A stretch of DNA of 64,000 nt from Rhodopirellula baltica SH 1. Lineage in GTDB: Bacteria; Planctomycetota; Planctomycetia; Pirellulales; Pirellulaceae. Under the pieces are notes generated by a model. The model searched no databases and had not been told where the DNA came from. It saw only the letters and a list, made by a program, of their open reading frames with translations. Positions within the stretch are counted from its first letter, which is position 1, and every line of letters begins with the position of its first letter. Position numbers and translations under genes: made by a program. Positions 2,654-64,000 of this stretch are shown piece after piece. Location of the stretch: the NCBI RefSeq assembly GCF_000196115.1, contig NC_005027.1, positions 5,948,001 to 6,012,000 of the forward strand, given 5' to 3'.

Positions 2654-5600
2654 ATTTGCCCACTTTGGCGGTGAAGTACCGTCCAATCGTTTTCTCCTTA
2701 GCGATTTTGGCGATGGCATGGGGAGCGATGACCTATGTCACCATTCCTCGACGAGAGGATCCTGAATTCACCATTCGTGTGTGCGTCGTTTCGACGTCTT
2801 GGCCTGGAGCACCCGCCGAGACGGTGGAGGAATTGGTGACGGACAAGATCGAACAAAACTTGACCAGTATCGAGGAAGTCAAGCTAACTCGATCCACCAC
2901 GCTGACCGGTCAATCCACCGTGTTCGTGGAGTTAGAAGACGACATCGCACCGGCCGATATCCAGAACGTGTGGGACAAAGTTCGCGCGCGAGTGGATTTG
3001 GTGACGATGCCTGCCGACCATGTGCGACCGATCGTCAATGACGAGTTCGGTGATACCGCGGTGTTGTTGCTGGGTATTCACCAGACTCCATCAAAGGATC
3101 GAACGGAGATTCGTCCGCAGGATCGCTACACGTTGCGGCAATTGGAGAAGTATGCGGAAGATGTTCAAGACGCATTGAGGTTGTTGCCGGGGATCGCGAA
3201 AGTCGACATGTTTGGCCAGCGATCCGAAGCGATCTTCATCGAAACCGATCTTTCCAATTGGGCTCAGTTGGAACTGACGACCAGCCAGCTGGAGTCTTTG
3301 GCCGATGATCGAAACATCATTCAGGCTGGTGGAGAGTTGGACACCGATTCAGGACACTTTTCAGTCAAGACCGAAGGCGAATTCAATGCTGTCGATGAGA
3401 TCACTCAAATCGCCAGCACGGTGCGAACCAGTCGCGGTGACAACAGCGTTTCGTTGGCCGAACTTGGATTGACGGTCACACGTGATTACGAAGACCCAGC
3501 AAACTACATCTGCCGAGTTGGTGACACAGAGGGCAGCACTCCCGCCGTGATGCTTGGAATCACGATGAAGTCCGGTTCAAACATCATCGATGTTTGCGAA
3601 GCGGCCAAATATCGAGTGCGGGAAATGGCAGAGGTAGAACAGTTGCTGCCTCCAGACATTGGCGTGACCGCGGTGTCAGATCAAAGTGAAAGCGTCGCGA
3701 AGAAGATCCGAGACGTGATCATCAATGTGGTCGAAGCCGTGCTGATCGTCGTTGTGGTTGTCTACTTGGTCGTTGGTTTCCGTACGTCGTTCGTGATGGC
3801 TGCGAACATTCCGATCGTGGTGGTGGTCACAGTCGGTTTGATTTCGTTGTTTGGAGTCCAGCTCGAACAAATCTCGCTCGCCGCAATGATCATTTCTTTG
3901 GGATTGTTGGTCGACAATGCCGTGCAAGTGTGTGACCAGGCAAGGTCGAACCAAATGGCGGGAATGGAGCCGTTCCCTGCCGCGATTGACGGAGCGAACA
4001 CTCTCGCGATCCCGATGTTGGTTGGCACACTGACGACGATGGCCGCATTCGTGCCGATGTTGTTCAGCCTGGAAGGTGGCGGCAAAGAATACGTCTACAG
4101 TTTGCCAGTCACGGTATCGACGACACTCGCGCTCAGTTGGGTTTTGGCGATGTCGTTGTGCGTGATCTTGGCGGGGATGTTCATTCGGGCTCCGAAAGAA
4201 GACCAAACAGGTTCACCCGTCGTTGCAACCTGGAATCGCATTTCGAGTTGGTGGCCCCGAAGAAAACGCCAATCCGCTATGACGCCCGAACGAGCCACTG
4301 CGAAGTCGGCAAAAACCAAACAAGAGAATCTTGCGTTTCGTGTGTATGGATGGCTGGGTGGTTTGGCGGTGCGATTCAAATGGTTGACGGCGGTCGCCAC
4401 GCTCTGCCTGATGATCGGAATCTTAACGCTGCCGGTGAGTTCGGAATTCTTTCCGGATGCGGATGGGACTCAGTTCGCCGTGAAGGTGATGTTGCCCGAA
4501 ACTGCCACGATTGAACAAACTGATCAAGTCACACGTCAGGTGGAAACCATTCTGCAACGTTTGGGGTCAGAGAAGTTGGCGGAGAATGGATTCGCAATGC
4601 CACCGCTTCGCGTGTATCGATCGTTGGTGGGAGGTGGCGGATCACGTTGGCATCTCGGATGGGATCCGGAGCCCAAGTCGAGATCATTTGCGGAGATTTT
4701 GGTCCGTACGACGGACGCATCAGTCACCAAACAATTCGCACAACGGGTTCGTGAAATCGCCGAACGTGGCGATGAAACTCTTGGAATCGAACCAATCGTT
4801 GGTGCTCGCATTGTGCCGGTTCGATTGGCCTTGGGGCCTCCGGCAGACCCGTTGGTCTTTCGGATCTCCGGCAACGGTTTCGCGAATCCCTCGGTGCTGC
4901 GTGAAGCGGCGGACGATTTGAAACAGCTCGTCACGGAACAGTCCGAGACTTGGGATGTATCTGATTCATGGGGAGTCGACGGGTACCAGATCCAGGTCGA
5001 TGTGGAACAAGATCGAGCGGTTCTGGCTGGTGTTACGAATTCGCAAATCGCGAGGACTTTGAATTCTTACTATTCCGGTTTGCAGCTGACAACGTTTCGG
5101 GAAGGCGACCATGAAGTGCCCGTCTATTTCCGGTTGAAGGCGAGTGAACGTGAGTCCGTTCGTGGTTTGCAGGAAGCGTTTGTGGAAGGTGACCGAGGAA
5201 AAGTGCCATTGGCATCGCTGGCCGTTTTGAAGCCCACCTTTGAAATTGCCAAAATCGAACGACGGAAGATGAACCGAACCATTGAAGTCAGTTCGCAAAT
5301 GGAACCGGGCGTCACGGGCAACGACGTTGTGTCTCGGGTTTTGAAATCGGACGAGATGCAGCGGTTGCAAGAAGAACTGCCAACCGGCTACTGGATCGAA
5401 CCCGGCGGTTCGTACGAAGAGAGTGCCGAAGCTGGTGGGCAGATGATGATGTCGTTTGCGATTTCGTTTCTGTTGATCGTCCTATGCTTGATCTTTCAAT
5501 ACAACGGTTGGTCCAAACCGCTGATCATTCTGTCGACGTTGCCTTTGGCATTGGTCGGTGCGTGGCTGGGTTTGTATTTGTCGGACAAGTCACTCGGCTT

Positions 5601-5997
5601 TATGCCGCAATTGGGAATCCTGGCACTGTTCGGCATTGTGCTGAACACAGCGATCATCTTTGTTGAGTTCGCGGATCTTTTGATTGCCGAACGAGCACGT
5701 GCAAAGAAGTCTTCCGGTGAAACGAACGGGCCGATCGTCGGTCTGACCAAAGAAGAGTTTCGGGATTGCTTGATTGAATCTGGTAAACAACGAATGCTGC
5801 CGATCTTTCTCACCACCGCGACAACGGTCGGTGGGTTGGTGCCTTTGGCATTGAGTGGCGGACCACTGTGGGAAGGATTGGCGTGGTGCATGATCGTGGG
5901 TTTGCTACTGACCACCACGCTGACGTTGTTCATTGTGCCCGCGTTCTATGCCATTTTGGTGGAGACGTTCCGCGTCGTCCCGGTTAGCGAATCTTGA
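2650..5997 (+). CDS. RND efflux pump, inner-membrane permease (AcrB/HAE-like)
   Basis: This 1115-residue RND transporter has the family's duplicated layout: one N-terminal helix, a porter domain, a helix bundle (about 360-500), a second porter domain and a C-terminal helix bundle. The helix-4 proton-relay motif reads GLLVDNAVQVC with Asp at about 422 followed by Asn, where AcrB has Asp-Asp. Only one of the paired acidic residues is kept, a pattern I recall from several other RND subfamilies. A cytoplasmic loop at about 520-560 is unusually long and basic. The substrate cannot be read from the sequence. The gene overlaps its adaptor by 4 bp and ends 12 bp from a convergent HD-domain gene. No outer-membrane channel gene is adjacent. 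Confidence 0.92.
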   Translation: MNLPTLAVKYRPIVFSLAILAMAWGAMTYVTIPRREDPEFTIRVCVVSTSWPGAPAETVEELVTDKIEQNLTSIEEVKLTRSTTLTGQSTVFVELEDDIAPADIQNVWDKVRARVDLVTMPADHVRPIVNDEFGDTAVLLLGIHQTPSKDRTEIRPQDRYTLRQLEKYAEDVQDALRLLPGIAKVDMFGQRSEAIFIETDLSNWAQLELTTSQLESLADDRNIIQAGGELDTDSGHFSVKTEGEFNAVDEITQIASTVRTSRGDNSVSLAELGLTVTRDYEDPANYICRVGDTEGSTPAVMLGITMKSGSNIIDVCEAAKYRVREMAEVEQLLPPDIGVTAVSDQSESVAKKIRDVIINVVEAVLIVVVVVYLVVGFRTSFVMAANIPIVVVVTVGLISLFGVQLEQISLAAMIISLGLLVDNAVQVCDQARSNQMAGMEPFPAAIDGANTLAIPMLVGTLTTMAAFVPMLFSLEGGGKEYVYSLPVTVSTTLALSWVLAMSLCVILAGMFIRAPKEDQTGSPVVATWNRISSWWPRRKRQSAMTPERATAKSAKTKQENLAFRVYGWLGGLAVRFKWLTAVATLCLMIGILTLPVSSEFFPDADGTQFAVKVMLPETATIEQTDQVTRQVETILQRLGSEKLAENGFAMPPLRVYRSLVGGGGSRWHLGWDPEPKSRSFAEILVRTTDASVTKQFAQRVREIAERGDETLGIEPIVGARIVPVRLALGPPADPLVFRISGNGFANPSVLREAADDLKQLVTEQSETWDVSDSWGVDGYQIQVDVEQDRAVLAGVTNSQIARTLNSYYSGLQLTTFREGDHEVPVYFRLKASERESVRGLQEAFVEGDRGKVPLASLAVLKPTFEIAKIERRKMNRTIEVSSQMEPGVTGNDVVSRVLKSDEMQRLQEELPTGYWIEPGGSYEESAEAGGQMMMSFAISFLLIVLCLIFQYNGWSKPLIILSTLPLALVGAWLGLYLSDKSLGFMPQLGILALFGIVLNTAIIFVEFADLLIAERARAKKSSGETNGPIVGLTKEEFRDCLIESGKQRMLPIFLTTATTVGGLVPLALSGGPLWEGLAWCMIVGLLLTTTLTLFIVPAFYAILVETFRVVPVSES

Positions 5998-6009
5998 GTC
6001 GTCGGGGTT

Positions 6010-6633
6010 TTAGTTCGCCATTTCGCTCATGAATTGATCCAGGAACGTTTCCATGAAACGTTCTCGATCGGCTGCGATCTGGCGTGCGGGTTCGGTGTGC
6101 AACATTTCCCGGAGTCGGAATAGCTTTTGATGAAAGTGACCGGCACCGGTTTTAGGGCCACTCAGGTTGCTGGGGTCATTTCCAGCGATGTGAAACGGTT
6201 GGCCGACGGTTGCTCCGTTTTCGATTGTTCGAACAATGCCGATCGCACCCAGGGCGTCGAGCCGGTCGGCGTCTTGAACGATCTTGCCTTCGTCCGAGAG
6301 TTCTTCCGCCGTTTCGTGCTTGCGAAACGAAAGGTTGTCAACGATGTGTGCGACGTGATCGATCGTCGATTGCTCCATCCCCTCGTTGGCCAGAATTTCG
6401 CGAGAGAACTCTGCGCTGCGTTCCTTGCCATCATGAAATTTTGCATCGCCGACATCGTGAAGCAGTGCGGCAAGTTCGACGATCAGGCGGTCGCCGCCAA
6501 TCTGCTGCTGAATGTCACACGCGGTTCGATGGACTCGCCGGACATGGTCGATTCCGTGACCGGCCTGTTGGTCAGCCATGCGTTGACTCACAATGTCGGC
6601 AACACGACGAATGATTGTTTTTGAATGATTCAT
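6010..6633 (-). CDS. HD-domain phosphohydrolase (YedJ-like)
   Basis: This 207-residue cytoplasmic protein carries the HD metal-binding signature: His at 26 and 30 (GHGIDHVRRVH), the His-Asp pair at 59-60 (ALLHDVGD) and a distal Asp in VQDADRLDALG (about 121-127). That order and length match the YedJ/YpgQ group of HD hydrolases, which act on nucleotides or related phosphate esters. The exact substrate is not predictable. The ATG at 6633 is the only sensible start. The gene is monocistronic and convergent with the RND pump gene, with no terminator hairpin between them. Confidence 0.88.
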   Translation of the reverse strand: MNHSKTIIRRVADIVSQRMADQQAGHGIDHVRRVHRTACDIQQQIGGDRLIVELAALLHDVGDAKFHDGKERSAEFSREILANEGMEQSTIDHVAHIVDNLSFRKHETAEELSDEGKIVQDADRLDALGAIGIVRTIENGATVGQPFHIAGNDPSNLSGPKTGAGHFHQKLFRLREMLHTEPARQIAADRERFMETFLDQFMSEMAN

Positions 6634-52549: not shown

Positions 52550-55500
52550 TCAAACAGCGTCCACTGTTGTTTCCGGTTCCTTCTTTTTCGCGAACCGTCG
52601 CAGCATCACGTAGAACACTGGCGTCAGGAACAAGCCGAACACGGTCACTCCCAGCATTCCGGCGAACACTGCGGTTCCCAATACACGTCGCATTTCGAAA
52701 CCGGCACCCGTGGCGACCAACAATGGCACCACGCCGAGGATGAATGAGAACGCGGTCATCAAAATCGGACGCAAACGCAAACGGCATGCTGCGATGGCGG
52801 CGTCGAAGCGGTTTTTGCCCGCGTCTTCTTCTGCCTTCGCAAATTCGACAATCAAGATCGCGTTTTTGCATGCCAGTCCAATCAAGACAATGAACCCGAT
52901 CTGCGTCAAAACATTGTTGTCCATCCCGCGGAACCATACGCCCGAGAGCGCGAACAGCAAGCACAGCGGCACAATCAAGATGATTGCCAACGGCAGCAAC
53001 CAGCTCTCGTACTGAGCGGAAAGTGCCAAGAACACAAACAGAACCGCGAGTGGGAATAGGAACACAATCGTGTTCCCGGCTTGGCGTTCTTGGAACGCGA
53101 TTTCGGTCCATTCGTAACCAAAACCGGGCGGCAAGTTTTGGTCGGCCAGTTGCTCCATCGTCGCAAGGGACTGGCCGGTGCTGAATCCAGGAACGGTTGT
53201 TCCATTCAAATCAGCCGCGGGGAACAGGTTGAATCGCACCAAACGGTCCGGACCGGCGGTTTGTGTGATGTTGACGACCGATCCCAATGCGATCGAGGCA
53301 CCTCGGTCACTGCGGGTTCGGATCTTTGTGATATCGGTCGCCTCGTCGCGGAATTTTGGTTCGGCTTGAGCCGTCACACGATAAGTGCGTCCGAGGAAGT
53401 TGAAGTCGTTGATGTACACCGATCCCAGATAGACCTGCAAAGCCTCGAAGACTCGATTGACCGGAACGTCCAGCATCTGAGCTTTGGTTCGATCCACGTC
53501 CGCATAGACCTGAGGCACATCCATCCGCAGGTTGGAAAACACTTGCGTGACGCCGGGTTGCTGATTGGCTTTCGCGAGCATCGTCTGAGTGACTTCGTTC
53601 ATCGCGTCCAAACCCGCACCGCTGCGGTCCTGGACATACATCTTGAAACCACCCCCACGCCCGATCCCGCGAATTGGCGGCGGTGGAATGATCAAAATTT
53701 GGGCTTCGTTGATCGCGGCAACCTCCCGACGCATGTCCGCGACGATCGCATCAACACCGCGACCTCGTTTGGCTCGTTCCTTGGCATCTTCCAGCGGCAA
53801 AAACGTCACCGCGGCGTTGGGTTTGATTGAGAACGTTGCTCCCGAAAGTCCCGCGATTCCAACCGCGTGGGCGACACCGTCGATTTCTTTTCCGATCTCC
53901 GCGACGCGCCGAGTCACGCGGTCGGTCCGTGCCAGGGACGCACCGTCGGGCAAGTTGATTGCGACAATGACGTAACCTTGGTCTTGATCGGGGATGAACC
54001 CGGTGGGCACCATGCTGAAGCTGAACCCGGTGAGAATCAGCAAGCCGACATACAGCACCATCGCGAATCCAGTCTTCTTGATCAGACGTCCAATGATCGA
54101 AGCATAAATGTTGCTGGTGGCATCGAACGTTCGATTGAACAGTCGAAAGAACCAGCCGAACAGGAAGTCGATCGCTTTGCCAGTGCGGTTCTTCGGAGCG
54201 TTCTTAGGACGCAGCAACAACGCACACAACGCCGGGCTGAGGGTCAGCGAGACGAAGGTCGAAATCGCGGTGGAGATCGAAATGGTCAACGCAAATTGTT
54301 GATAAAACTGACCGCTGATTCCGGGGACAAACACGGTCGGCACGAACACGGCAATCAGAACGAGTGTTGTCGCTATCAAAGCGGATCCCACCTCGTCCAT
54401 CGCTTTGTGTGTGGCTTCCCGAGCGGTCATGCCTTCGGCGATCAAACGTTCGACGTTCTCAACCACCACAATCGCGTCATCAACCACGATTCCGATCGCC
54501 AACACCAATCCAAACAGTGAAAGCGTATTCAGCGTCACTCCGAGGAACTGCATCACCGCGAATGTGCCGATCAATGAAATCGGAATGGCGATCACGGGAA
54601 TGATCGTCGGACGCCAACCGTGCAAGAAGAGGAACACGGTCAGCACCACGAAGATGGTCGTGATGAAGAGTGTCTCGAACACTTCCGCGATCGAGTCTTC
54701 GACATAATCAGTTGGGTTGTAAGCGATCTCGTAGCCAATTCCTTGGGGGAATTCTTCGCTCATCTCGCTCATGACACGTTTGACTTCGGCCGCGGTGTCA
54801 ACCGCGTTTGTGCCGGGGCGTTGGTAAACCAACACCGCGATTGCGGACTTGCCATCGAGGTAACTCAAACGGGAGTAATCCTGTGCACCCAGTTCAATCC
54901 GGGCCACGTCGCGGAGTCGCGTGATTCGTCCGTCTTCACCACGTTTGACGATGATGTCGCCAAATTCGTCTTCGCGAATCAAACGACCTTGGGTGGTGAC
55001 GTTCAACTGAAAGTCACCCGTCTCATCCGTCGGTGGTTGCCCGATCACACCCGCGGCGACTTGAATGTTTTGAGCTTGAATCGCATCCACGACTTCGCCC
55101 GCGGTCAAATCGACGTGTGTCATCTTTTCGATGTCCAACCAAATCCGCATGGCGTATTCGTTGCCGCCAGCGATGCGGATTTCACCCACGCCATCCAAAC
55201 GCATCAGTGCATCGCGAACACGAAGGAACGCGTAGTTGCTGATGTAGAGTTGATCGCGGCTGTCGTCGGGCGAGTTCAGGTGAACCACCATCAACATGTC
55301 GGGGATTTGCTTGGTCGTCGTCACACCGATTTGGCGGACTTGTTCTGGCAAACGCGATTCAGCGATCGCAACACGGTTTTGGACCAACACCTGAGCGTCG
55401 TCCAAGTCAGTGCCCAGCTTGAACGTCACGGTCAGTTGCATGGTGCCGTCCGAGCTGGACGACGATTCCATGTACAACATGTCATCGACACCGTTCATCT

Positions 55501-55708
55501 CTTGTTCGATGGGTGTCGCCACGGTGTCAGCAATGACTTCCGGCGTTGCACCGGGATAGCTGGCCCGAACCAAAACGGTCGGCGGTGCCACGCTGGGGTA
55601 TTGGGAAACCGGCAGCGTGAAATACACGATGCCGCCCACTAGCACGATCACAAATGACAGCACCGATGCGAAGATCGGGCGTTCAATGAAGAAGTGAGGA
55701 AACTTCAT
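52550..55708 (-). CDS. RND multidrug efflux pump (HAE1/AcrB family)
   Basis: This 1052-residue pump has the full AcrB layout: MKFPHFFIERPIFASVLSF at the N-terminus, SYPGATPEVIADTVATPIEQEMNGV, a helix-4 motif LVLAIGIVVDDAIVVVENVERL with both proton-relay aspartates, and VPTGFIPDQDQGYV in the second half. It ends LGVVPLLVATGAGFEMRRVLGTAVFAGMLGVTVFGLFLTPVFYV. The frame is open to 55768, but the ATG at 55708 overlaps the adaptor stop (ATGA) and matches the family start. The MarR gene upstream suggests drug- or phenolic-inducible control. No outer-membrane factor gene is in the operon. It is quite unlike the pump at 2.6-6.0 kb. Confidence 0.94.
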   Translation of the reverse strand: MKFPHFFIERPIFASVLSFVIVLVGGIVYFTLPVSQYPSVAPPTVLVRASYPGATPEVIADTVATPIEQEMNGVDDMLYMESSSSSDGTMQLTVTFKLGTDLDDAQVLVQNRVAIAESRLPEQVRQIGVTTTKQIPDMLMVVHLNSPDDSRDQLYISNYAFLRVRDALMRLDGVGEIRIAGGNEYAMRIWLDIEKMTHVDLTAGEVVDAIQAQNIQVAAGVIGQPPTDETGDFQLNVTTQGRLIREDEFGDIIVKRGEDGRITRLRDVARIELGAQDYSRLSYLDGKSAIAVLVYQRPGTNAVDTAAEVKRVMSEMSEEFPQGIGYEIAYNPTDYVEDSIAEVFETLFITTIFVVLTVFLFLHGWRPTIIPVIAIPISLIGTFAVMQFLGVTLNTLSLFGLVLAIGIVVDDAIVVVENVERLIAEGMTAREATHKAMDEVGSALIATTLVLIAVFVPTVFVPGISGQFYQQFALTISISTAISTFVSLTLSPALCALLLRPKNAPKNRTGKAIDFLFGWFFRLFNRTFDATSNIYASIIGRLIKKTGFAMVLYVGLLILTGFSFSMVPTGFIPDQDQGYVIVAINLPDGASLARTDRVTRRVAEIGKEIDGVAHAVGIAGLSGATFSIKPNAAVTFLPLEDAKERAKRGRGVDAIVADMRREVAAINEAQILIIPPPPIRGIGRGGGFKMYVQDRSGAGLDAMNEVTQTMLAKANQQPGVTQVFSNLRMDVPQVYADVDRTKAQMLDVPVNRVFEALQVYLGSVYINDFNFLGRTYRVTAQAEPKFRDEATDITKIRTRSDRGASIALGSVVNITQTAGPDRLVRFNLFPAADLNGTTVPGFSTGQSLATMEQLADQNLPPGFGYEWTEIAFQERQAGNTIVFLFPLAVLFVFLALSAQYESWLLPLAIILIVPLCLLFALSGVWFRGMDNNVLTQIGFIVLIGLACKNAILIVEFAKAEEDAGKNRFDAAIAACRLRLRPILMTAFSFILGVVPLLVATGAGFEMRRVLGTAVFAGMLGVTVFGLFLTPVFYVMLRRFAKKKEPETTVDAV

Positions 55709-57108
55709 CGTTTCACCTCCGTCATGCGATCCGCAACTGGAACGGCGGTCGGTGGGGGTGAGATCCATTTCTCTTTCGGAACCGGTTGATACTCGTCCGG
55801 CAATCCGTCTTCGACGACTTCAATCTTTCCGTCAATCGTATTCACCTCGGCATCGGGACGAGCCTGCATCAGACCTTCCGTCACCAACAATTCGGTTCCG
55901 TCGAGCCCTTTGCGAATGACTCGCAGGCCGTCGATGATCGGACCACTGGTGATGGGACGACGCTGGATCACACCATCGACGACGATGTAGACGTACTGGG
56001 TCGATTGGTCGGTGCCGATCGCCGAGTCAGGAATCAAAACCGCTTTGTGTGATGCACTGCCTGGAATTCGAATGCGAGCGAACATGCCGGGAAGCAACAG
56101 TTCGTCTTCGTTGGCAAAGACACTTCGGGCACGCAGGCTGGCCGTATTGATGTCAAAGCGGTTGTCGACGAAATCCATGTGTCCCTGGTGAGGGAAACCG
56201 TCTTCATCGACCAATCCAAGGAACACCGGGTTCTTTGCAACTCGCGAACTTTCGCGTTCACCGGATTTGGCCAAACGGGAATATTTCAGTACGTCTTGTT
56301 CGGTCGCGTCAAACACACAGTAAATCGGCTGCACCGATGCGATCGTGGTCAACAAAGAAGAGGTCACGCTGCCGCCGGCAATCAGGTTGCCTTCGGTGAC
56401 GTACTTGCGACTGATGCGACCAGTGATGGGCGCACGGATGCGAGTGTATTGCAAATTAAGCTCAGCGGTCTCGACGCCCGCCTTTGCGAGTTCAATTTCA
56501 GCTTGCGCGGTTGCGATTGCGGCTTCGGATGAATTCAGGCTCGCACGAACACCTTCGATGTCGGCCTTTGCTTTCAAGAACTCCGCCTCACGGTCATCCA
56601 GTTCGTCTTGGGACGAAGCGTTGCGCTCGACCAAGTTCTGCGTTCGCTTGTAACGAACATCGGCGAGGTTCAATTGAGCTTCCGATTGCAACAGGTTTGC
56701 GCGAGCAACCTCCGTCATCGCCTTGGCTTGTTTGAATTGCGATTCGGATTGCTGCAGTCTTGCCTGCGCCGCTGCCAACTCGGCTTCGAACGGACGCGGG
56801 TCGATGATGAATAACAAATCGTTCTTTTCGACAATTTGGCCTTCATCGAAATGGACCGACTGCAGATAGCCACCCACACGAGCTCGCACTTCCACCAAGT
56901 CGACCGCCTCCAATCGTCCGGTGAAGGCATCCCATTCGACAATTTGCTTCACAACCGGTTGCGCGACGGTCACGGTGGGGTTGGGCATCGCCGGCGGTCC
57001 GCTTTGGCCCTGGCTGCATCCAGCGACGACGAGCAACAGCATCCCGCTGATGCAGGACCCGAGTGCGAGCTTCCCAAAGAAGGCTTGGTTTTGATGAGGA
57101 GGATTCAT
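55705..57108 (-). CDS. RND efflux adaptor (AcrA/MexA-like), lipoprotein
   Basis: This 467-residue membrane-fusion protein has a lipoprotein signal with lipobox VAGC (LLLVVAGCSQ). The lipoyl half (VEVRARVGGYLQSVHFDEGQIVEKNDLLFIIDPRPFEAEL) leads into a long Ala/Gln/Glu coiled-coil hairpin (about 100-215), the second half (YTRIRAPITGRISRKYVTEGNL) and a beta barrel. The C-terminal tail is Pro-rich. The frame is open to 57252, but the ATG at 57108 begins the signal peptide. It overlaps the pump gene by 4 bp and follows the MarR gene by 115 bp. Confidence 0.92.
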   Translation of the reverse strand: MNPPHQNQAFFGKLALGSCISGMLLLVVAGCSQGQSGPPAMPNPTVTVAQPVVKQIVEWDAFTGRLEAVDLVEVRARVGGYLQSVHFDEGQIVEKNDLLFIIDPRPFEAELAAAQARLQQSESQFKQAKAMTEVARANLLQSEAQLNLADVRYKRTQNLVERNASSQDELDDREAEFLKAKADIEGVRASLNSSEAAIATAQAEIELAKAGVETAELNLQYTRIRAPITGRISRKYVTEGNLIAGGSVTSSLLTTIASVQPIYCVFDATEQDVLKYSRLAKSGERESSRVAKNPVFLGLVDEDGFPHQGHMDFVDNRFDINTASLRARSVFANEDELLLPGMFARIRIPGSASHKAVLIPDSAIGTDQSTQYVYIVVDGVIQRRPITSGPIIDGLRVIRKGLDGTELLVTEGLMQARPDAEVNTIDGKIEVVEDGLPDEYQPVPKEKWISPPPTAVPVADRMTEVKR

Positions 57109-57223
57109 GATCGGTTTCGATCCAAAGACGAAAGAGTTCGGGTGGGACCCAAGCGGTGTCTGCTCGTGATGGCGGACAGGAGTCGGGTGAATGGGGTTCG
57201 GAGTTGAAAGTGTTTGAGTGAAG

Positions 57224-57697
57224 TCAGTCGTCGCAGCGAGAAATCGATTCACGAGTTCGATTGAGCAATTGCAAAAGACTCTGCTTGTCCGCCTCGTTGA
57301 GCTGTTTCAGCATCCGGTCTTCCAGCTCTCGAAGTGGTTGCATGGTGTCTTCGACGAGTTGTTTGCCCTTTGCGGTGATTGCCACATGCACGACTCGACG
57401 GTCCTCGGTGCACCGATTGCGCTCAACCAGTTCTTGCGAGCAAAGATGGTCAACCAGCGACGTGACCGCGGGGACGACCTGAATCATTTGCTCTCCAATC
57501 TCGCCGCAAGTAAGCGGCCGCTCAGCGAGAGCCAAGCTGCGCAGAATGTTGAATCGAGACAGCGTCAAACCGTGTTCGCGAAAAAGACGCGAGAAGCGGT
57601 TGTCGAGTTGGTCGCCAATGCGAAGGAAGTTCAGCAACACTTCTTGGTCCAAGCATCGAAATGGTTGGGGGCGGTTCAGTTCCTGTTGCAGATTCAT
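57224..57697 (-). CDS. MarR family regulator of the RND operon
   Basis: This 157-residue MarR protein has a helix-turn-helix (LTCGEIGEQMIQVVPAVTSLVDHLCSQELV) and the wing Asp-Arg (NRCTEDRRVVHVAITAKG). The ATG at 57697 has GAGGAA 7 bases upstream; the GTG at 57727 is less likely. It is the first gene before an AcrAB-like pair on the same strand, the classic arrangement of a repressor with its efflux operon. The 176 bases upstream are AT-rich (for example GGTTATTAGTGAGATATC near 57740), where its own operator probably lies. Confidence 0.9.
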   Translation of the reverse strand: MNLQQELNRPQPFRCLDQEVLLNFLRIGDQLDNRFSRLFREHGLTLSRFNILRSLALAERPLTCGEIGEQMIQVVPAVTSLVDHLCSQELVERNRCTEDRRVVHVAITAKGKQLVEDTMQPLRELEDRMLKQLNEADKQSLLQLLNRTRESISRCDD

Positions 57698-57903
57698 TGC
57701 GAATTCCTCGGGCGGACGTCGTTTCACTGCTGAATAGGTTATTAGTGAGATATCTTTTGTCGAATCGTTTCCGCCGATAAAATATTAGGTAGCGCAGGGC
57801 CACGGAAACCTCCAGGTAGCGGTCGCATGGTCGCCGTAAATGCTCAGAAGGAGCGTGCTCTTCTGTTCAGTGTTTGCGGTGGTCGCTGCTTGGAAGCTTC
57901 AGC

Positions 57904-58329
57904 TCAGCTGGCTTCGGTGCGATCGAGTTGCTTCCGCGTGGGAATCACTTCCGCGAGAGTGACGCTGTTCAGATAATCCATCTGGATGCGTTCGGCATTG
58001 GCGAGCACGCCGGTGAGTTTGCAGAAAGAGTGGATCACACATCCGTGATCGCCCGCGACACACGGCAACAGATGCATGTCACTTTCCACCGTGGCGATGA
58101 TTTGTCCAACGGTGACGTCTTCGGGGCGAACCGCCAATTCAATCCCGCCGCCAACCCCGCGGATGCTTCGCACGTATCCTTCACGCGCGAGAACGTTGAC
58201 GACTTTGGCGACATGATTGACGGAAATATTGAACAGAGAGGCAACCCCAGCGACGTTGGCCCGAGATTCTCTCGTGGCCAAATACATCAACGTTCGCAGT
58301 GCATAGTCGGTTTGGGTTGTCAGTCTCAT
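57904..58329 (-). CDS. Rrf2 family regulator, NsrR-like with three cysteines
   Basis: This 141-residue Rrf2 winged-helix protein (MRLTTQTDYALRTLMYLA, then ASLFNISVNHVAKVVNVLAREGYVRSIRGVGGGIELAVRP) has three cysteines in PCVAGDHGCVIHSFCKL, spaced C-x6-C-x5-C. That is close to the iron-sulfur cluster ligands of NsrR, the nitric-oxide sensor, and unlike the IscR spacing. The frame is open to 58371, but the ATG at 58329 is the family start. It diverges from the small secreted protein and cytochrome genes. A GATACGATAC stretch near 58360 upstream may be its own operator. Confidence 0.88.
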   Translation of the reverse strand: MRLTTQTDYALRTLMYLATRESRANVAGVASLFNISVNHVAKVVNVLAREGYVRSIRGVGGGIELAVRPEDVTVGQIIATVESDMHLLPCVAGDHGCVIHSFCKLTGVLANAERIQMDYLNSVTLAEVIPTRKQLDRTEAS

Positions 58330-58604
58330 ATCGATCCAGAGTAAACCTCGCGGGCTCGCGTATCGTATCAAACATCGCTTTTCTCGCTTGCTTCTGTTGA
58401 AAAATCAATGTTTTGTGGTGGTGCAAACTGAGCGGTGTTGTCCACGATTCTGGGCGTCGGTCCCTATCGGTGGAACGAGCGAAGTTCAGCTTTGGCGTGG
58501 GAACTCCCCTTGTTCAATTGACTTGGGTGTTCAGTCTGCCTAGGCTCGTAGGAGTGCCGCCTTTGCTCCTTGTCGAGCATGGCTTTTCTTGAGGCGGCAA
58601 AAAC

Positions 58605-58621
58605 TCAGTTTGATCAACTGA
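58605..58621. promoter_or_regulatory. palindrome TCAGTT-N5-AACTGA before the secreted protein gene
   Basis: The 6-base arms (58605-58610 and 58616-58621) flank TGATC and end about 7 bases before the start codon at 58629. It could be an operator for the adjacent Rrf2 regulator or another protein, or a hairpin that affects translation start. Confidence 0.35.
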
Positions 58622-58628
58622 AAAAAAC

Positions 58629-59093
58629 ATGTTGCGTGCTCTTCTCCTTACCGTGGTCGCTGTTTTGCTGGCGGGCGTTTCGACGCCGCGTTCAGTCGAG
58701 GCGAGTTGCGGGGATTGGTTGCAGCATTCTGGTAGCGCATCGATGAGCGTGGTTGAACCGCCCGCGATGCGAAGCAGCGACCTGAAACCGATCCAACCGG
58801 GGACTCCGCTGAATGGCACGGTGAGTCACGGTGGACAGGAATCAGCCGGTCAATCCATTCCCGTCAAACCGTGCGACGGACCATTGTGTGGCCAGTTGCC
58901 AACGCTTCCGGTTCAGTTGCCGACGGTTCCTCCTGCTGAACGTCCGCATCACGATGCCATCTGGAAACAGGCATCGCCGGGTATGTGTTCGGGACAGTTC
59001 CTTTGCCGTTTGCAGGATGGTTCGGCGGATGTTCAACCAGGATTCTCGCTGGGGATCGATCGTCCGCCGCAGATGACCTTGTCTCTGGCTTGA
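58629..59093 (+). CDS. small secreted Cys-containing hypothetical protein
   Basis: This 154-residue protein has a clean signal peptide (MLRALLLTVVAVLLAGVSTPRSVEA) cut before SCGDW. The mature part has five cysteines (CGDW, PCDGPLCGQ, MCSGQFLC), Pro-rich spacers and no known domain. I do not recognise a family. Its position divergent from the NsrR-like gene and before the multihaem cytochrome suggests a shared function, perhaps as a periplasmic accessory. The codon pattern fits neighbours. Confidence 0.6.
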   Translation: MLRALLLTVVAVLLAGVSTPRSVEASCGDWLQHSGSASMSVVEPPAMRSSDLKPIQPGTPLNGTVSHGGQESAGQSIPVKPCDGPLCGQLPTLPVQLPTVPPAERPHHDAIWKQASPGMCSGQFLCRLQDGSADVQPGFSLGIDRPPQMTLSLA

Positions 59094-59383
59094 GCAAGTC
59101 GTTTCCGCATGTTGGTTGGCAATCGCTGACCATTACTCGTTGTCTGCATGGATGACGAGCATGTGGATGCAGCATCGAGTCCGCCGACGCATGTTTGTGT
59201 TTGGCGAGCGTTGCGAAAAATGTCCTGCTCGATGTCAGTTCCGGTGCCATCTCTGGTGCGCCGGCAACCAAAGGATCTCGGTTGGCAGCGGTCCGCTTCC
59301 AACCGATCGATGCACTTCCACCGATTCCGTCGGTCGCGGGTGCACCTTAAGTCTGCAAACTGACCGTTCACTGGAATCGTTTC

Positions 59384-62278
59384 ATGTCATCCGTTGCACA
59401 ACCCGGTGCGGCCGTGCCGAAGCCGCGAAAAAAGTATGTTCGCGCGGTCGGACCGCGGCTGAAGAAATTGCTTTACGCCATTTTCGTTCTTTTCGCTTTG
59501 TTGCTGGCAAATTCTGGCTATCTGGCCACCTTCACTTTTCTGGAGTGGTTTCGTGACCAGACATACCAGGACTACTTCTACCAGTACATGTTCCTCGCCC
59601 ATTTGGTGATGGGACTGTTGTTGATTTTGCCGGTCGTCATCTTTGGTTTCATTCATATGTGGAACACCAAAGATCGTCGCAACCGGCGAGCGGTCCGAAT
59701 TGGTTACGCCCTTTTCGCGGTCAGTTTGGGCATTCTCACGACGGGGATTTTGTTGGTTCGGATCGGAGGCTTTGACTTGAAGCAACCGTTGGCACGCAAC
59801 ACGGTTTACTGGCTGCATGTTGCGTTTCCACTGGCTTCGATTTGGCTGTATTGGCTGCACCGTTTGGCCGGTCCACGGATCAAGTGGCGGATTGGCATGA
59901 GCTTTGGCGGAGTCGCGATCGCGTCCATTGCTGCCATGGTGATCTTGCAAATGCAGGACCCTCGCCAGTGGAACGCGATTGGTCCCGATTCAGGAACGCA
60001 GTACTTCGAACCGTCGCTGGCTCGAACATCAAGCGGCAACTTCATTCCATCCGACGCTTTGATGAACGATGAATACTGTTTGAAGTGTCACGCTGACATC
60101 CACAAGGATTGGCAGGACAGCGTGCACCGATTCAGTTCTTTCAACAACGCACCGTACTTTGCCAGTGTCAGCGAAACGAGGGCGAAGTCGCTCGAGCGGG
60201 ATGGGTCGGTTCAAGCTTCACGCTGGTGCGCGGGGTGCCACGACCCCGTGCCATTTTTCTCCGGCGCGTTTGATGATCCAAACTTCGACATGCTGGATCA
60301 CCCGACCGCGAATGCGGGGATCACTTGCACGGTCTGTCACGCAATCACCAACGTCAACAGCGTTCGGGGAAATGCGGACTACACGATTGAAGAACCGTTG
60401 CACTACCCATTTGCCAATAGCGAAAACGCAGCGTTGCAATGGGTCAACAATCAACTGGTCAAAGCAAAACCGTCATTTCACAAGAAGACTTTTTTAAAGC
60501 CGTTTCATAAAACGGCGGAGTTTTGTTCGACCTGTCACAAAGTGCACCTGCCCGCCGCGTTGACCGGGTACAAGGAATTCTTGCGAGGACAGAACCACTA
60601 CGACCCGTATCTGTTCAGCGGTGTGTCCGGACACGGGGCGAGAAGTTTCTATTACCCGCCCAAGGCCGTCGACAACTGCAGCAAGTGTCATATGCCGCTG
60701 GTGGCGTCGAATGACTTTGGTGCGAAGATGTTCGATGACGCGGAAGAACTCAGTGTTCACGATCACATGTTCCCGTCAGCGAACACTGGGATCGCATGGC
60801 TTCGTGATCGCGACGATGTGATTGCGGCTCATCAAGAGTATCTGAAGGATGTGATGCGAGTTGATCTGTTTGGCGTTCGCGAAGGTGGCGAAATCGATGG
60901 TAATTTGATCGCGCCGTTGCGTCCCGAAGTGCCGGCATTGAAACGCGGCGAGAAGTATCTGATAGAGACCGTGATTCGCACAATGAAGATGGGGCACCTG
61001 TTTTCGCAGGGGACCGTCGATAGCAATGAGATTTGGTTGGAAGTCAAAGTCACCAGTGGCGATCGATTGATCGGGCACAGCGGATTGATCGACAAAGGCA
61101 AGCACAATGAAGTCGATCCATGGTCGCACTTCATCAACGTGTTCATGCTGGACAAGGATGGCAATCGAATCAATCGAAGAAATGCGGAAGATATCTTCAC
61201 GCCTCTGTATAACCACCAGATTCCACCTGGGGCCGGACAGACGGTCCACTACGAACTGAACGTGCCCGATGATGTGTCGGAACCGATTCACGTCGAGCTG
61301 AAGTTGCAGTATCGGAAATTCGATACCGAGTACATGGACTTCGTTGCCAAGCAAAATGAAAAGCACGGCAATCTGATCCGAGGTCATGTGCCGGGGACGG
61401 ATTACACCAACGATTTGCCAATCACCACGATGGCGGTCGATACGATTGTGTTCCCGGTGGAGGGACTGAATCATTCGGTCGAAAATCCACCTCGAGACAT
61501 TCCCGCATGGCAACGGTGGAACGACTACGGGATTGGGTTACTGCTGAAAGGCAAAGCGGAAATGCGCCAGGCAGAAAACGCTTTCCGCGAAGTCGAAAAA
61601 CTTGACCGCTACGATGGACCGATGAACTTGGCTCGAGTCTTGAACACGGAAGGTCGTTTAGATGAAGCGGTGGAGGCTCTTCAGCGTGCGGACGAGTTCC
61701 GGGACGTCGAGGGTTTCCCACGATGGACATGGGCTTGGTTGTCAGGCGTTATCAACGCCCAGCAGGGATATCTGGAAGAAGCCGAGCAGAATCTTCGTAG
61801 TGTGTTGGAAGACAGCACGGAAGACATGCAGAGTCGAGGTTTTGATTTCAGTTTGGATATTGAAGTCATCAACCAACTCGGACGCACGCTGTTTGATCTT
61901 GGTATCGCTCGTGAGCGGCAACTTGGAACCGAAGAAGTCCGGGAATACTTCGAAGAAGCGGTGATGCAATATCAGAAGACATTGATGATCGATCCGGAGA
62001 ACGTTTCCGCTCACCACAATTTGCAGCTGCTCTACGATCGACTTGAAGAGCCTGAATTGGCAGATAAGCATCGCAAGTTGCACGAAATTTACAAACCCGA
62101 TGACAACGCTCAAGGACGTGCGGTTCGATTGGCACGAGAGAAGTATCCCGCGGCGGATCATGCCGCGGAGGACGTCGTGAAGTACTCGTTGCATCGCGAA
62201 TTACCAACCCAAAGCTCGGCGAACGAGACCGCACAGGTCTCTGCTGGCAACTTGCAGGAGAATTCCAATGACCAGTGA
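59384..62278 (+). CDS. membrane multihaem cytochrome c with TPR domain
   Basis: This 964-residue protein has three parts. Residues of about 25-210 form four or five membrane helices with histidine pairs on two helices (HLVMG...GFIHMW and HVAFP...WLHRL), as in membrane cytochrome b subunits that oxidise quinol. Residues of about 230-440 carry five CxxCH haem sites (232, 282, 315, 381, 432), like cytochrome c554-type proteins. After a beta domain, about 700-920 hold TPR-like helical repeats (AEMRQAENAFREVEKLDRY, LDEAVEALQRADEF). It could move electrons from quinol to periplasmic haems. The partner downstream is a CRTAC1 protein whose start overlaps by 11 bp. Confidence 0.85.
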   Translation: MSSVAQPGAAVPKPRKKYVRAVGPRLKKLLYAIFVLFALLLANSGYLATFTFLEWFRDQTYQDYFYQYMFLAHLVMGLLLILPVVIFGFIHMWNTKDRRNRRAVRIGYALFAVSLGILTTGILLVRIGGFDLKQPLARNTVYWLHVAFPLASIWLYWLHRLAGPRIKWRIGMSFGGVAIASIAAMVILQMQDPRQWNAIGPDSGTQYFEPSLARTSSGNFIPSDALMNDEYCLKCHADIHKDWQDSVHRFSSFNNAPYFASVSETRAKSLERDGSVQASRWCAGCHDPVPFFSGAFDDPNFDMLDHPTANAGITCTVCHAITNVNSVRGNADYTIEEPLHYPFANSENAALQWVNNQLVKAKPSFHKKTFLKPFHKTAEFCSTCHKVHLPAALTGYKEFLRGQNHYDPYLFSGVSGHGARSFYYPPKAVDNCSKCHMPLVASNDFGAKMFDDAEELSVHDHMFPSANTGIAWLRDRDDVIAAHQEYLKDVMRVDLFGVREGGEIDGNLIAPLRPEVPALKRGEKYLIETVIRTMKMGHLFSQGTVDSNEIWLEVKVTSGDRLIGHSGLIDKGKHNEVDPWSHFINVFMLDKDGNRINRRNAEDIFTPLYNHQIPPGAGQTVHYELNVPDDVSEPIHVELKLQYRKFDTEYMDFVAKQNEKHGNLIRGHVPGTDYTNDLPITTMAVDTIVFPVEGLNHSVENPPRDIPAWQRWNDYGIGLLLKGKAEMRQAENAFREVEKLDRYDGPMNLARVLNTEGRLDEAVEALQRADEFRDVEGFPRWTWAWLSGVINAQQGYLEEAEQNLRSVLEDSTEDMQSRGFDFSLDIEVINQLGRTLFDLGIARERQLGTEEVREYFEEAVMQYQKTLMIDPENVSAHHNLQLLYDRLEEPELADKHRKLHEIYKPDDNAQGRAVRLAREKYPAADHAAEDVVKYSLHRELPTQSSANETAQVSAGNLQENSNDQ

Positions 62279-64000
62279 TCCGCAATCAAACGAAGTGGAC
62301 GAAAGCGAACTGCGAGACGAAGCCGATATCGGCCGCGCGATGCGAGGGTCGTTGATCGTGTTGGTGGTTCTGGCTTTGATCGGTGGCGTTGCAGCCTATG
62401 TCTTGACGCGTCCCAAAGCGGCACCGCCCGTTCGCGAATCCAAGTTGGCCGCGGTCGCGGTGCGTGAGCGGCCCATGGTGCAGGTTCCAACCACCCCGTT
62501 TACGGACATCACCGAAGAAGCGGGGATCTCTTTTGTTCACAACAACGGTGCGACAGGAGACAAGTTGCTGCCGGAAACGATGGGTGGTGGAAGTGCCTTT
62601 CTTGATTTCGACAACGACGGGGATCAGGACCTGTTGTTGATCAATTCGATGGATTGGTCTTGGGACGAACCAAGTGATCGAGGGAACACATCGGCTCTGT
62701 ATCGAAACGAAGGTGGCAAGTTCGTCGATGTGACCAAGGGTTCGGGTTTGGACGTTGAGTTGTACGGAATGGGAGTCGCGGTCGGCGATTATGACCAAGA
62801 CGGTTTGGTGGACGTCTTTATCTCCGCGGTTGGGACAAATCGATTGTTTCGCAATGTCGGTGAAGGCAAATTCGAGGACACTACTGAAACGGCCGGCGTT
62901 GGTGGCGAAGAAGATCGATGGAGTACGAGTTCCGGTTGGTTTGACTACGACAACGATGGTGATTTGGACCTGTTTGTTTGCAACTACGTTGGATGGAGTC
63001 GCGAGTACGATCAGTCCCAGGGGTTTCAGCTTGTCGGCGGCGGACGAGCGTACGGTCGTCCTCAGAATTTTGAAGGAACGTTCCCGTATCTGTACCGCAA
63101 CGATGGTGATGGCGAATTCACAGACGTGTCGGAGGAAGCCGGCATTCAGATTCGCAATGTGTCCACCAATGTTCCGCAGTCGAAATCGCTTGGGTTGGCT
63201 TTGTGCGACTTTGATCGCAATGGGTTCATGGATGTTGTGGTAGCCAACGACACGGTGCAAAACTGTTTGCTGCGGAATGGCGGCGACGGGAAATTCACGG
63301 AGATGGGAGCGATTTGCGGGATCGCATTTGACTCCTCCGGCAACGCCCGCGGGGCCATGGGCATCGATGTGACATCGTTTCGTGAACAATCCAGCGTGGC
63401 GGTTGCAATCGGAAACTTTTCCAACGAGATGACCGCGTTGTACGTGACAAAGGCTGGGCGAATGCAGTTTTATGACGAAGCGATTTCGACGGGGCTCGGT
63501 CCAAGCACGCGTCTGTTACTGACATTTGGATTGGCTTATGTCGACTACGATTTAGATGGTCGCTTGGACTTGTTCTGTGCAAACGGGCACTTAGAAGAGG
63601 ATATCAATCGGGTGCAGCCAAGTCAGCACTATGAGCAACCGCCTCAGATGTTTTGGAATGCGGGCCCCGAGTTCGAAACCGAGTTTCTGCCGGTTGGCAA
63701 GGAGCAGTTAGGTGAGGATTTCGTGGAACCGATGGTTGGACGCGGTGCATCCTACGCGGACGTCGATTTGGACGGTGATTTGGATCTGCTGATCACATCC
63801 GCCGGACGTGCGCCACGATTGTTACGCAACGATCAAGAAACGGGGCACCACTGGTTGCGATTGAAATTGGTGGGCGATGGTGAGAAGTGCAATCGAGACG
63901 CCATTGGGGCGTGGGTGAGCGTCACTGTTGGTGACGAAGTGATTGCAAAACAAGTGATGCCGACCCGAAGCTATTTGACACAGGTGGAGTTGCCATTGAC
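62268..64000 (+). CDS. CRTAC1 family protein (FG-GAP/VCBS repeats, UnbV/ASPIC), 3' end missing
   Basis: The frame starts at ATG 62268, overlapping the cytochrome stop by 11 bp with GGAG about 9 bases upstream, and stays open to the window end (577 codons). One membrane helix at about 27-46 anchors a periplasmic beta-propeller. Six calcium-binding loops of the FG-GAP/VCBS type are seen: DFDNDGDQD, DYDQDGLVD, DYDNDGDLD, DFDRNGFMD, DYDLDGRLD and DVDLDGDLD. At the end NRDAIGAWVSVTVGD begins the UnbV/ASPIC domain, which is cut off. Such proteins are abundant in planctomycetes next to TPR and cytochrome genes; their function is unknown. It probably forms a complex with the upstream cytochrome. Confidence 0.87.
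   Translation, partial: MTSDPQSNEVDESELRDEADIGRAMRGSLIVLVVLALIGGVAAYVLTRPKAAPPVRESKLAAVAVRERPMVQVPTTPFTDITEEAGISFVHNNGATGDKLLPETMGGGSAFLDFDNDGDQDLLLINSMDWSWDEPSDRGNTSALYRNEGGKFVDVTKGSGLDVELYGMGVAVGDYDQDGLVDVFISAVGTNRLFRNVGEGKFEDTTETAGVGGEEDRWSTSSGWFDYDNDGDLDLFVCNYVGWSREYDQSQGFQLVGGGRAYGRPQNFEGTFPYLYRNDGDGEFTDVSEEAGIQIRNVSTNVPQSKSLGLALCDFDRNGFMDVVVANDTVQNCLLRNGGDGKFTEMGAICGIAFDSSGNARGAMGIDVTSFREQSSVAVAIGNFSNEMTALYVTKAGRMQFYDEAISTGLGPSTRLLLTFGLAYVDYDLDGRLDLFCANGHLEEDINRVQPSQHYEQPPQMFWNAGPEFETEFLPVGKEQLGEDFVEPMVGRGASYADVDLDGDLDLLITSAGRAPRLLRNDQETGHHWLRLKLVGDGEKCNRDAIGAWVSVTVGDEVIAKQVMPTRSYLTQVELPL

Follow-up and report, generated by a model that had tools for sequence, protein, structure and literature searches.

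A candidate exported nascent-chain leader ahead of a multihaem cytochrome–CRTAC1 gene pair in Rhodopirellula baltica and other planctomycetes

The window analysed here is a stretch of 64,000 nucleotides from the planctomycete Rhodopirellula baltica SH 1 (NC_005027.1, forward strand, positions 5,948,001 to 6,012,000), taken from a single-contig genome of 7,145,576 bases. At its end lie a divergent Rrf2-family regulator and, on the opposite strand, genes for a small exported protein, a large membrane cytochrome and a CRTAC1-type propeller protein (Table 1). The open reading frames (ORFs) named in the original prediction, which was made from the sequence of the window, are all present: the minus-strand Rrf2 ORF has its cysteines at residues 91, 98 and 104, the cytochrome combines five CXXCH motifs with five N-terminal helices and a TPR-like C-terminus, and the coordinates bear out the 11 bp by which the start of the CRTAC1 ORF precedes the end of the cytochrome ORF. 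The CRTAC1 ORF holds six D-x-D-x-[DN]-G motifs and, read by eye, an N-terminal hydrophobic anchor; its FG-GAP repeats and ASPIC domain score over cut-off in the whole genome copy (71 bits for ASPIC, well above cut-off), whereas ASPIC stays below cut-off within the window because the gene is cut by the window edge. The most interesting part of the locus is the small protein, which we read as a probable cis-acting leader of the operon behind it.

Table 1. Features of the locus, in positions of the window
Feature	Positions	Strand	Remarks
Rrf2-family regulator	57904..58329	-	C-x6-C-x5-C; divergent neighbour; Pfam Rrf2 E 3.1e-33
Sigma-70-like promoter TTGACT-N17-TAGGCT, 5' of leader	58518..58546	+	-35 and -10 elements kept in an alignment of six species
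Exported leader-type small protein	58629..59093	+	Putative signal peptide, SCGDW, CDGPLC, C-terminal DRPPQ
Leader–cytochrome gap, 290 nt	59094..59383	+	3' part: fold more stable than shuffles in this species
Cytochrome, 964 aa	59384..62278	+	Five membrane helices, pentahaem c domain, beta-rich domain, TPR-like domain
CRTAC1/ASPIC FG-GAP propeller	62268..64000	+	Extends beyond the window to about 64115; 615 aa

The cytochrome–CRTAC1 core

The cytochrome and CRTAC1 genes are the conserved core of the locus. Relatives of the cytochrome are encoded in at least 568 of the 589 candidate stretches of a species collection, and some match to it occurs in 241 of the 392 genomes of the phylum. Within the taxonomic family, 128 of 149 genomes give a match at an E-value of 0.001 or better; the best E-value is printed as 0 in 89 family genomes (a count of printed rows), and many of the other matches are short c554-like stretches. 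CRTAC1 follows on the same strand in 77 of 81 family loci and lies upstream with overlap in one more, while one of the three remaining loci is a contig end. The corresponding counts are 63 of 80 loci in the species collection (one of these at 2.2 kb; two of the 17 without are contig ends) and 42 of 55 further loci from the class and phylum, where the criterion for adjacency probably missed one. Among the 13 counted without, L304 probably has a CRTAC1 hidden by one long open frame, L314 has a weaker match 3.3 kb off and L330 is truncated where its stretch ends. These three sets share organisms (L032 and L114, for example), and their counts are not summed. Overlaps of 1, 4 or 11 bases recur between the two ORFs, which are separate in the loci listed, although no search was aimed at natural fusions. 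At L111, a distant homologue, the order is reversed and CRTAC1 lies upstream of the cytochrome and overlaps it.

The pair is real and widespread, and in the literature searched it is uncharacterised: a search of open papers found no description of either the cytochrome–CRTAC1 pair or the leader family. The spread claimed here stays within the phylum, since the titles of metagenome bins, such as 'Kuenenia' or 'Akkermansia' on sequences close to planctomycete ones, look unreliable. Conservation of the genes across the Planctomycetes, the check suggested earlier, holds for the cytochrome and CRTAC1, which are co-conserved and co-oriented across the phylum, and fails for the Rrf2 gene, whose adjacency is limited to the genus. 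Among viral sequences four stretches fit the search pattern and none encodes a relative of the cytochrome, the query having been a single protein that finds close relatives only.

In a structure model of the cytochrome (mean predicted local distance difference test score, pLDDT, of 84), long N-terminal helices at residues 24-57, 64-95, 101-123, 135-162 and 168-189 are followed by the haem region, with CXXCH at 232, 282, 315, 381 and 432, then by a beta-rich domain and a helical C-terminal domain. For the last of these TPR models fall just below the Pfam cut-offs and the model matches TPR structures; a fold search with the full model gave TPR-type proteins only among the best 50 of 1348 matches. 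Residues 1-200 have no Pfam match over cut-off and show weak sub-threshold matches to other families. All five CXXCH motifs are kept in 81 of 81 family loci and in 199 of 201 distinct homologues, the other two having four. Homologues with four motifs instead of five stand at L309 and L312.

A haem-b site had been anticipated in the membrane domain, and two conserved histidine pairs are present there. H73 and H145 are invariant in all 201 distinct homologues, and H91 and H159 are found in 199, both being missing from the same two sequences. The pairs lie on two helices (64-95 and 135-162), as in di-haem b proteins, and the helix order in the model would place one pair near each membrane face. 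The four histidines fit two b haems, as candidate ligand pairs and not as bound haem. Charged residues, read by eye, suggest that the N-terminus is inside and the haem domain periplasmic. In total, a membrane protein with seven haems is predicted. The two sequences that lack the pair 91/159, L109 and L110, keep the other pair and would represent a natural single-b-haem variant; the loss may have been one event, since the two sequences look alike.

Because the gene pair is co-conserved and co-oriented and the membrane histidine pairs suit b haems, a quinol-linked electron-transfer complex is a reasonable reading. That half of the earlier suggestion of a quinol-driven complex under NsrR control can be retained, whereas the NsrR half is unsupported.

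The nearest solved structure by profile is the pentahaem cytochrome c552 (PDB 5ze8, E 4.7e-4), followed by MccSep (PDB 9wt8, E 0.005), in both cases over part of the haem region. A first haem region of the form CxxCH-x6-W-x4-H and a last site of the type CxxCHM[PK] are shared with both, but the window cytochrome has in the same chain a di-haem-b-like domain of five helices and a TPR-like domain. Its first three haems match the cytochrome c554 family (PF13435, 24.3 bits against a cut-off of 20.8), whereas c554 itself (1bvb) is matched at chance level (E 3.9) and the window protein has five haems and a membrane domain. Its partner has the same repeats and ASPIC domain as other CRTAC1/ASPIC-UnbV FG-GAP proteins, but here it is apparently membrane-anchored and adjoins a multihaem cytochrome in most loci.

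These partial profile matches speak for the doubtful but conceivable notion that the cytochrome and CRTAC1 are a catalytic pair, with one c haem as an open active site that CRTAC1 would shape or gate, an arrangement that would be compatible with a leader upstream. Ten histidines outside the CXXCH motifs were tested in the c-haem and beta-rich parts, and only four of them (H248, H366, H461 and H538) are fully invariant in 201 of 201 homologues; with five c haems to serve, the distal side of one could be open or variable. A CRTAC1-type gene is also described in clusters of putative hydrazine synthase homologues (PMC12758564). Against such a pair, of the six tested histidines that are not fully invariant (375, 405, 417, 459, 582 and 622), those at 375 (177 of 201), 405 (178 of 201) and 582 (188 of 201) are common though variable and are possible ligands.

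The small exported protein

Direct reading of the regions upstream of the cytochrome gave a pattern for the small ORF: a signal-like N-terminus, [AGS]-[ST]-CGD[YW], a Pro/Ala-rich linker, CxGPxC, a variable linker and [DE]RPP[RQ], the window member ending in DRPPQMTLSLA. With a profile built from members the family is recovered in 97 of 161 loci; in 89 of 150 its gene stands immediately before the cytochrome in the same orientation, and it is present in 10 of 15 further loci from the class (one of them 2 kb away). As judged from the alignment, the N-terminus is hydrophobic with a small-residue site before the first cysteine. Across 33 members the start and residues C27, G28, C82, C87, P146 and P147 are invariant and the middle is very variable; CX4C occurs in 92 of 98 leader hits and CxGPxC in 69 of 98. 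Pfam and NCBIfam gave no convincing family match for these 33 members.

The last PP stands 1-8 residues before the stop codon in 82 of 87 distinct members. Of 88 distinct leaders, 83 have a PP within the last 12 residues and 72 an [RK]PP; the figures for a background of 1043 ORFs with a minimum length of 300 aa are 45 and 6, with the reservation that the background ORFs were called mechanically, are in some cases unreal, include many cytochrome and CRTAC1 homologues and are not independent. A composite test of hydrophobicity, cysteine and PP is positive in 65 of 92 leader loci and in none in antisense. The gap to the cytochrome is 57-541 nt in 82 of 87 distinct members. The leader is under purifying selection as a protein, but loosely, to judge by its ratio of nonsynonymous to synonymous substitution rates (dN/dS): of 15 pairs picked by hand, 14 gave a value for the leader, at 0.14-0.54, and 13 gave one for the cytochrome, at 0.03-0.09, some of the dS values being saturated.

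A strict promoter-like site was defined as TTGAC-N16-18-TAnnnT, with expectations taken from mononucleotide shuffles, and the one in the window lies in the best conserved intergenic block of the six aligned species. Of 78 leaders, 28 have such a site in the 150 nt ahead of them (0.5 expected). Behind a leader, the cytochrome has one in 0 of 81 loci, within 150 and within 300 nt alike, and CRTAC1 has one within 150 nt upstream in 0 of 78. Strict sites precede the leader and never the cytochrome behind it, which most likely makes the leader the transcript's first ORF. Before cytochromes without a nearby leader, a strict site lies within 300 nt in 7 of 64 (0.6 expected). The composite test found no substitute leader in the 68 leaderless loci, a set that includes a few with a leader further away, and on this ground the small protein seems dispensable for the complex.

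The family is not confined to the cytochrome: a match to its profile at E 0.01 or better is found in 68 of the 149 family genomes, and 19 hand-picked loci were read in which the leader does not lie next to a cytochrome. In seven of these (L257, L258, L259, L260, L263, L269 and L271) a small membrane protein, a polyferredoxin-like membrane protein and a TPR–FG-GAP–ASPIC protein follow downstream, with what we take from the look of the sequences to be a FixH-like protein in six of the seven (it was not matched in L257). In ten others (L262, L264-L267, L270, L272-L274 and L276) the downstream genes are presumably, again from their look, DUF1559-like (pilin-like) and/or carboxymuconolactone-decarboxylase-like, some of the matches being weak or short; behind the leader of L268 only the TPR–ASPIC relative follows, and behind that of L261 there are apparent transporter genes. 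Pfam models for FG-GAP, ASPIC and TPR score over cut-off in the first of these operon types, where iron–sulphur (Fe-S) models are weak and neither the FixH-like protein nor the small membrane protein is matched. The strict promoter type lies upstream of 7 of the 19 paralogue leaders, and no CXXCH occurs in the same-strand ORFs listed behind them. Heading operons of several kinds, the small ORF behaves as a cis regulator would.

In the arrangement with the polyferredoxin-like and TPR–FG-GAP–ASPIC proteins, a CRTAC1-like protein is once more paired with a membrane redox module. At L272 and on contigs C15 and C301 of genome G108 leader genes stand in tandem, two copies about 0.7 kb apart.

Leader or periplasmic component

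Two copper-responsive systems offer a precedent for such an ORF. CutF and CruR combine an export signal, a Cys motif and a C-terminal Pro motif with a regulated downstream operon, and they place the genes behind them under copper-responsive control, CutF through slowed translation and export (PMC9973294) and CruR through relief of arrest and Rho termination (PMC9426467). With CutF of Rhodobacter capsulatus and CutF-like proteins the planctomycete leader shares a small, apparently exported ORF, a Cys motif, a C-terminal Pro motif with PP within the last 15 residues, and a position at the head of an operon with a same-strand downstream gene within 1000 nt (PMC9973294). With CruR of Bordetella pertussis, a DUF2946 protein, it shares an apparently exported upstream ORF, the Cys and C-terminal Pro motifs and a long intergenic gap (PMC9426467). 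The likeness to these exported leaders is one of architecture and not of sequence. Relative to CutF the planctomycete leader is another sequence family, with CX4C and an N-terminal CGD motif, with no copper gene recognised downstream and no conserved stem-loop found; relative to DUF2946 (PF11162), model matches number 0 of 33 and RPP is preceded by D/E instead of forming RAPP. The CutF-like length limit of 150 aa (PMC9973294) is exceeded by the window member, at 154 aa, and 52 to 58 of 76 distinct members fall below it, depending on the start codon.

The small Cys-containing secreted protein had been listed only in passing; its signal–Cys–RPP architecture and operon-head position are better read as those of a cis-acting exported leader than as those of a redox subunit. 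We therefore favour, at a probability of roughly 0.55, an operon of leader, cytochrome and CRTAC1 that has a membrane electron-transfer core and in which the small protein is a cis-acting nascent-chain leader. The operon would be transcribed from the promoter 5' of the leader. Two b haems in the five-helix domain would pass electrons, probably from quinol, to the five periplasm-facing c haems, and the anchored CRTAC1 propeller and the TPR domain may serve as partner or docking modules. The small exported protein, instead of being a subunit, would act as a leader like CutF and CruR: its cysteines would bind a ligand or react during export, and the ribosome would be slowed at its C-terminal RPP stretch, right ahead of the stop codon, which would set the expression of cytochrome and CRTAC1. 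The signal would most likely be copper, by analogy only, with the periplasmic thiol redox state second.

Several observations weigh against this interpretation. None of 40 loci from elsewhere in the phylum, outside the class, has the leader, and 61 of 150 loci have no leader directly upstream; CRTAC1 is not directly downstream in 4 of 81, 17 of 80 and 13 of 55 loci. No strict site precedes 50 of 78 leaders or 57 of 64 leaderless cytochromes. Folding of the gap has a z of -2.9 against shuffles in the window, but the mean z is -0.7 over 82 loci; across these 82 loci there is no extra pairing at the cytochrome start (0.55 vs 0.60), and in the gap, which aligns poorly, no conserved RNA structure and no Rfam match was found. 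No copper gene was recognised downstream of the leaders, Pfam having been run on one paralogue operon type only, and the DUF2946 and CopL models of Pfam and NCBIfam match 0 of 33 members. The Cys motif is CX4C (92 of 98) instead of the CxxxC of CutF or the CxxC of CruR, and the C-terminus is mostly [DE]-R-P-P-[RQ] instead of the R-x-P-P of proven arrest peptides. The last difference matters because the Arg of RAPP-type peptides is irreplaceable. As sequence, Cys spacing and Pro motif all differ, the leader is not filed as a member of DUF2946, and the claim that the family works like CutF and CruR, an argument by analogy, is given slightly better than even odds.

Two observations touch these comparisons from the side. 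In two related species (L113 and L116) the gap holds a long, near-perfect hairpin, seen by eye and absent from the other seven aligned. At L275, close to apparent pilus genes, positions 5555-6022 (+) and 3300-3854 (-) hold a true DUF2946 protein (41 bits), which has CxxC and, towards its C-terminal end, RGPP, and a second match that is weak and His/Cys-rich.

It might instead be supposed that the small protein is a true periplasmic component, such as a metallochaperone, a maturation factor or a loosely held subunit of the cytochrome complex, which would account for its purifying selection, its look of an exported protein, its invariant cysteines and its place beside a haem protein. This seems unlikely, if not strongly so, given that it is absent directly upstream in so many loci and has no substitute in the leaderless ones, that its middle is very variable, that no CXXCH lies in the same-strand ORFs behind the 19 paralogues and that, in our judgement, a folded subunit would not usually conserve an RPP at its very end.

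The Rrf2 neighbour and wider meaning

The regulator beside the operon had been taken as NsrR-like, in control of a quinol-driven complex that responds to nitric oxide (NO) or redox state and reduces a nitrogen oxide or an extracellular electron acceptor. Its membership of the Rrf2 superfamily is clear (115 bits against 30 in Pfam; 107 bits against 73.3 for the TIGR model), but the NCBIfam equivalog model for NsrR gives 91 bits, half of its cut-off of 182. A divergent Rrf2 gene adjoins the leader operon in 6 of 13 Rhodopirellula genomes, the window's own included, which speaks for the proposal; in no other genus read is it adjacent, the 81 loci yielding the window only and the 80 loci R. europaea only, and beside the Rrf2 orthologues of G115 and G141 the available flank shows no cytochrome. 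Between the Rrf2 gene and the leader the six-species alignment shows by eye no palindrome that the species clearly share, and a repeat search on the window alone gave two weak inverted repeats there. Nothing points to nitrogen-oxide reduction, although no search was aimed at such genes. As a general feature NsrR or NO control is therefore rejected and not counted as part of the system, its adjacency being found only within the genus, and the whole proposal is improbable; the Rrf2 protein may still control the operon in those species that carry its gene alongside. A neighbouring regulator, in other words, is not necessarily the operon's regulator.

On the minus strand, 52550-57727 holds efflux-like genes, which we take to be of the RND type, with a MarR-type regulator next to the Rrf2 gene. 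The MarR gene and the gene beside it also adjoin Rrf2 in the same six genomes of the genus.

There is some reason to think, though at a little under even odds, that the leaders form a class of exported nascent-chain sensors (CGD[YW]...CxGPxC...RPP-stop), absent from the papers searched and spread across the planctomycete class. Operons of three or more kinds would stand behind such leaders (the phylum-wide b/c-haem–TPR cytochrome with CRTAC1; the Fe-S membrane protein with FixH-like and TPR–ASPIC proteins; and the DUF1559–carboxymuconolactone-decarboxylase-like type) and be tuned by them to copper or periplasmic redox, in which case the membrane electron-transfer modules of these bacteria would have CRTAC1/ASPIC proteins as their standard partners. 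Nor need a small secreted Cys protein be a subunit of the complex that it adjoins, and the link to the cytochrome provides a functional context for bacterial ASPIC proteins. If the interpretation is true, planctomycetes would use a large, unrecognised family of sensors that act during synthesis and export, and the likely operon logic would be in hand for a respiratory-type complex that is conserved very widely in the phylum and apparently uncharacterised.

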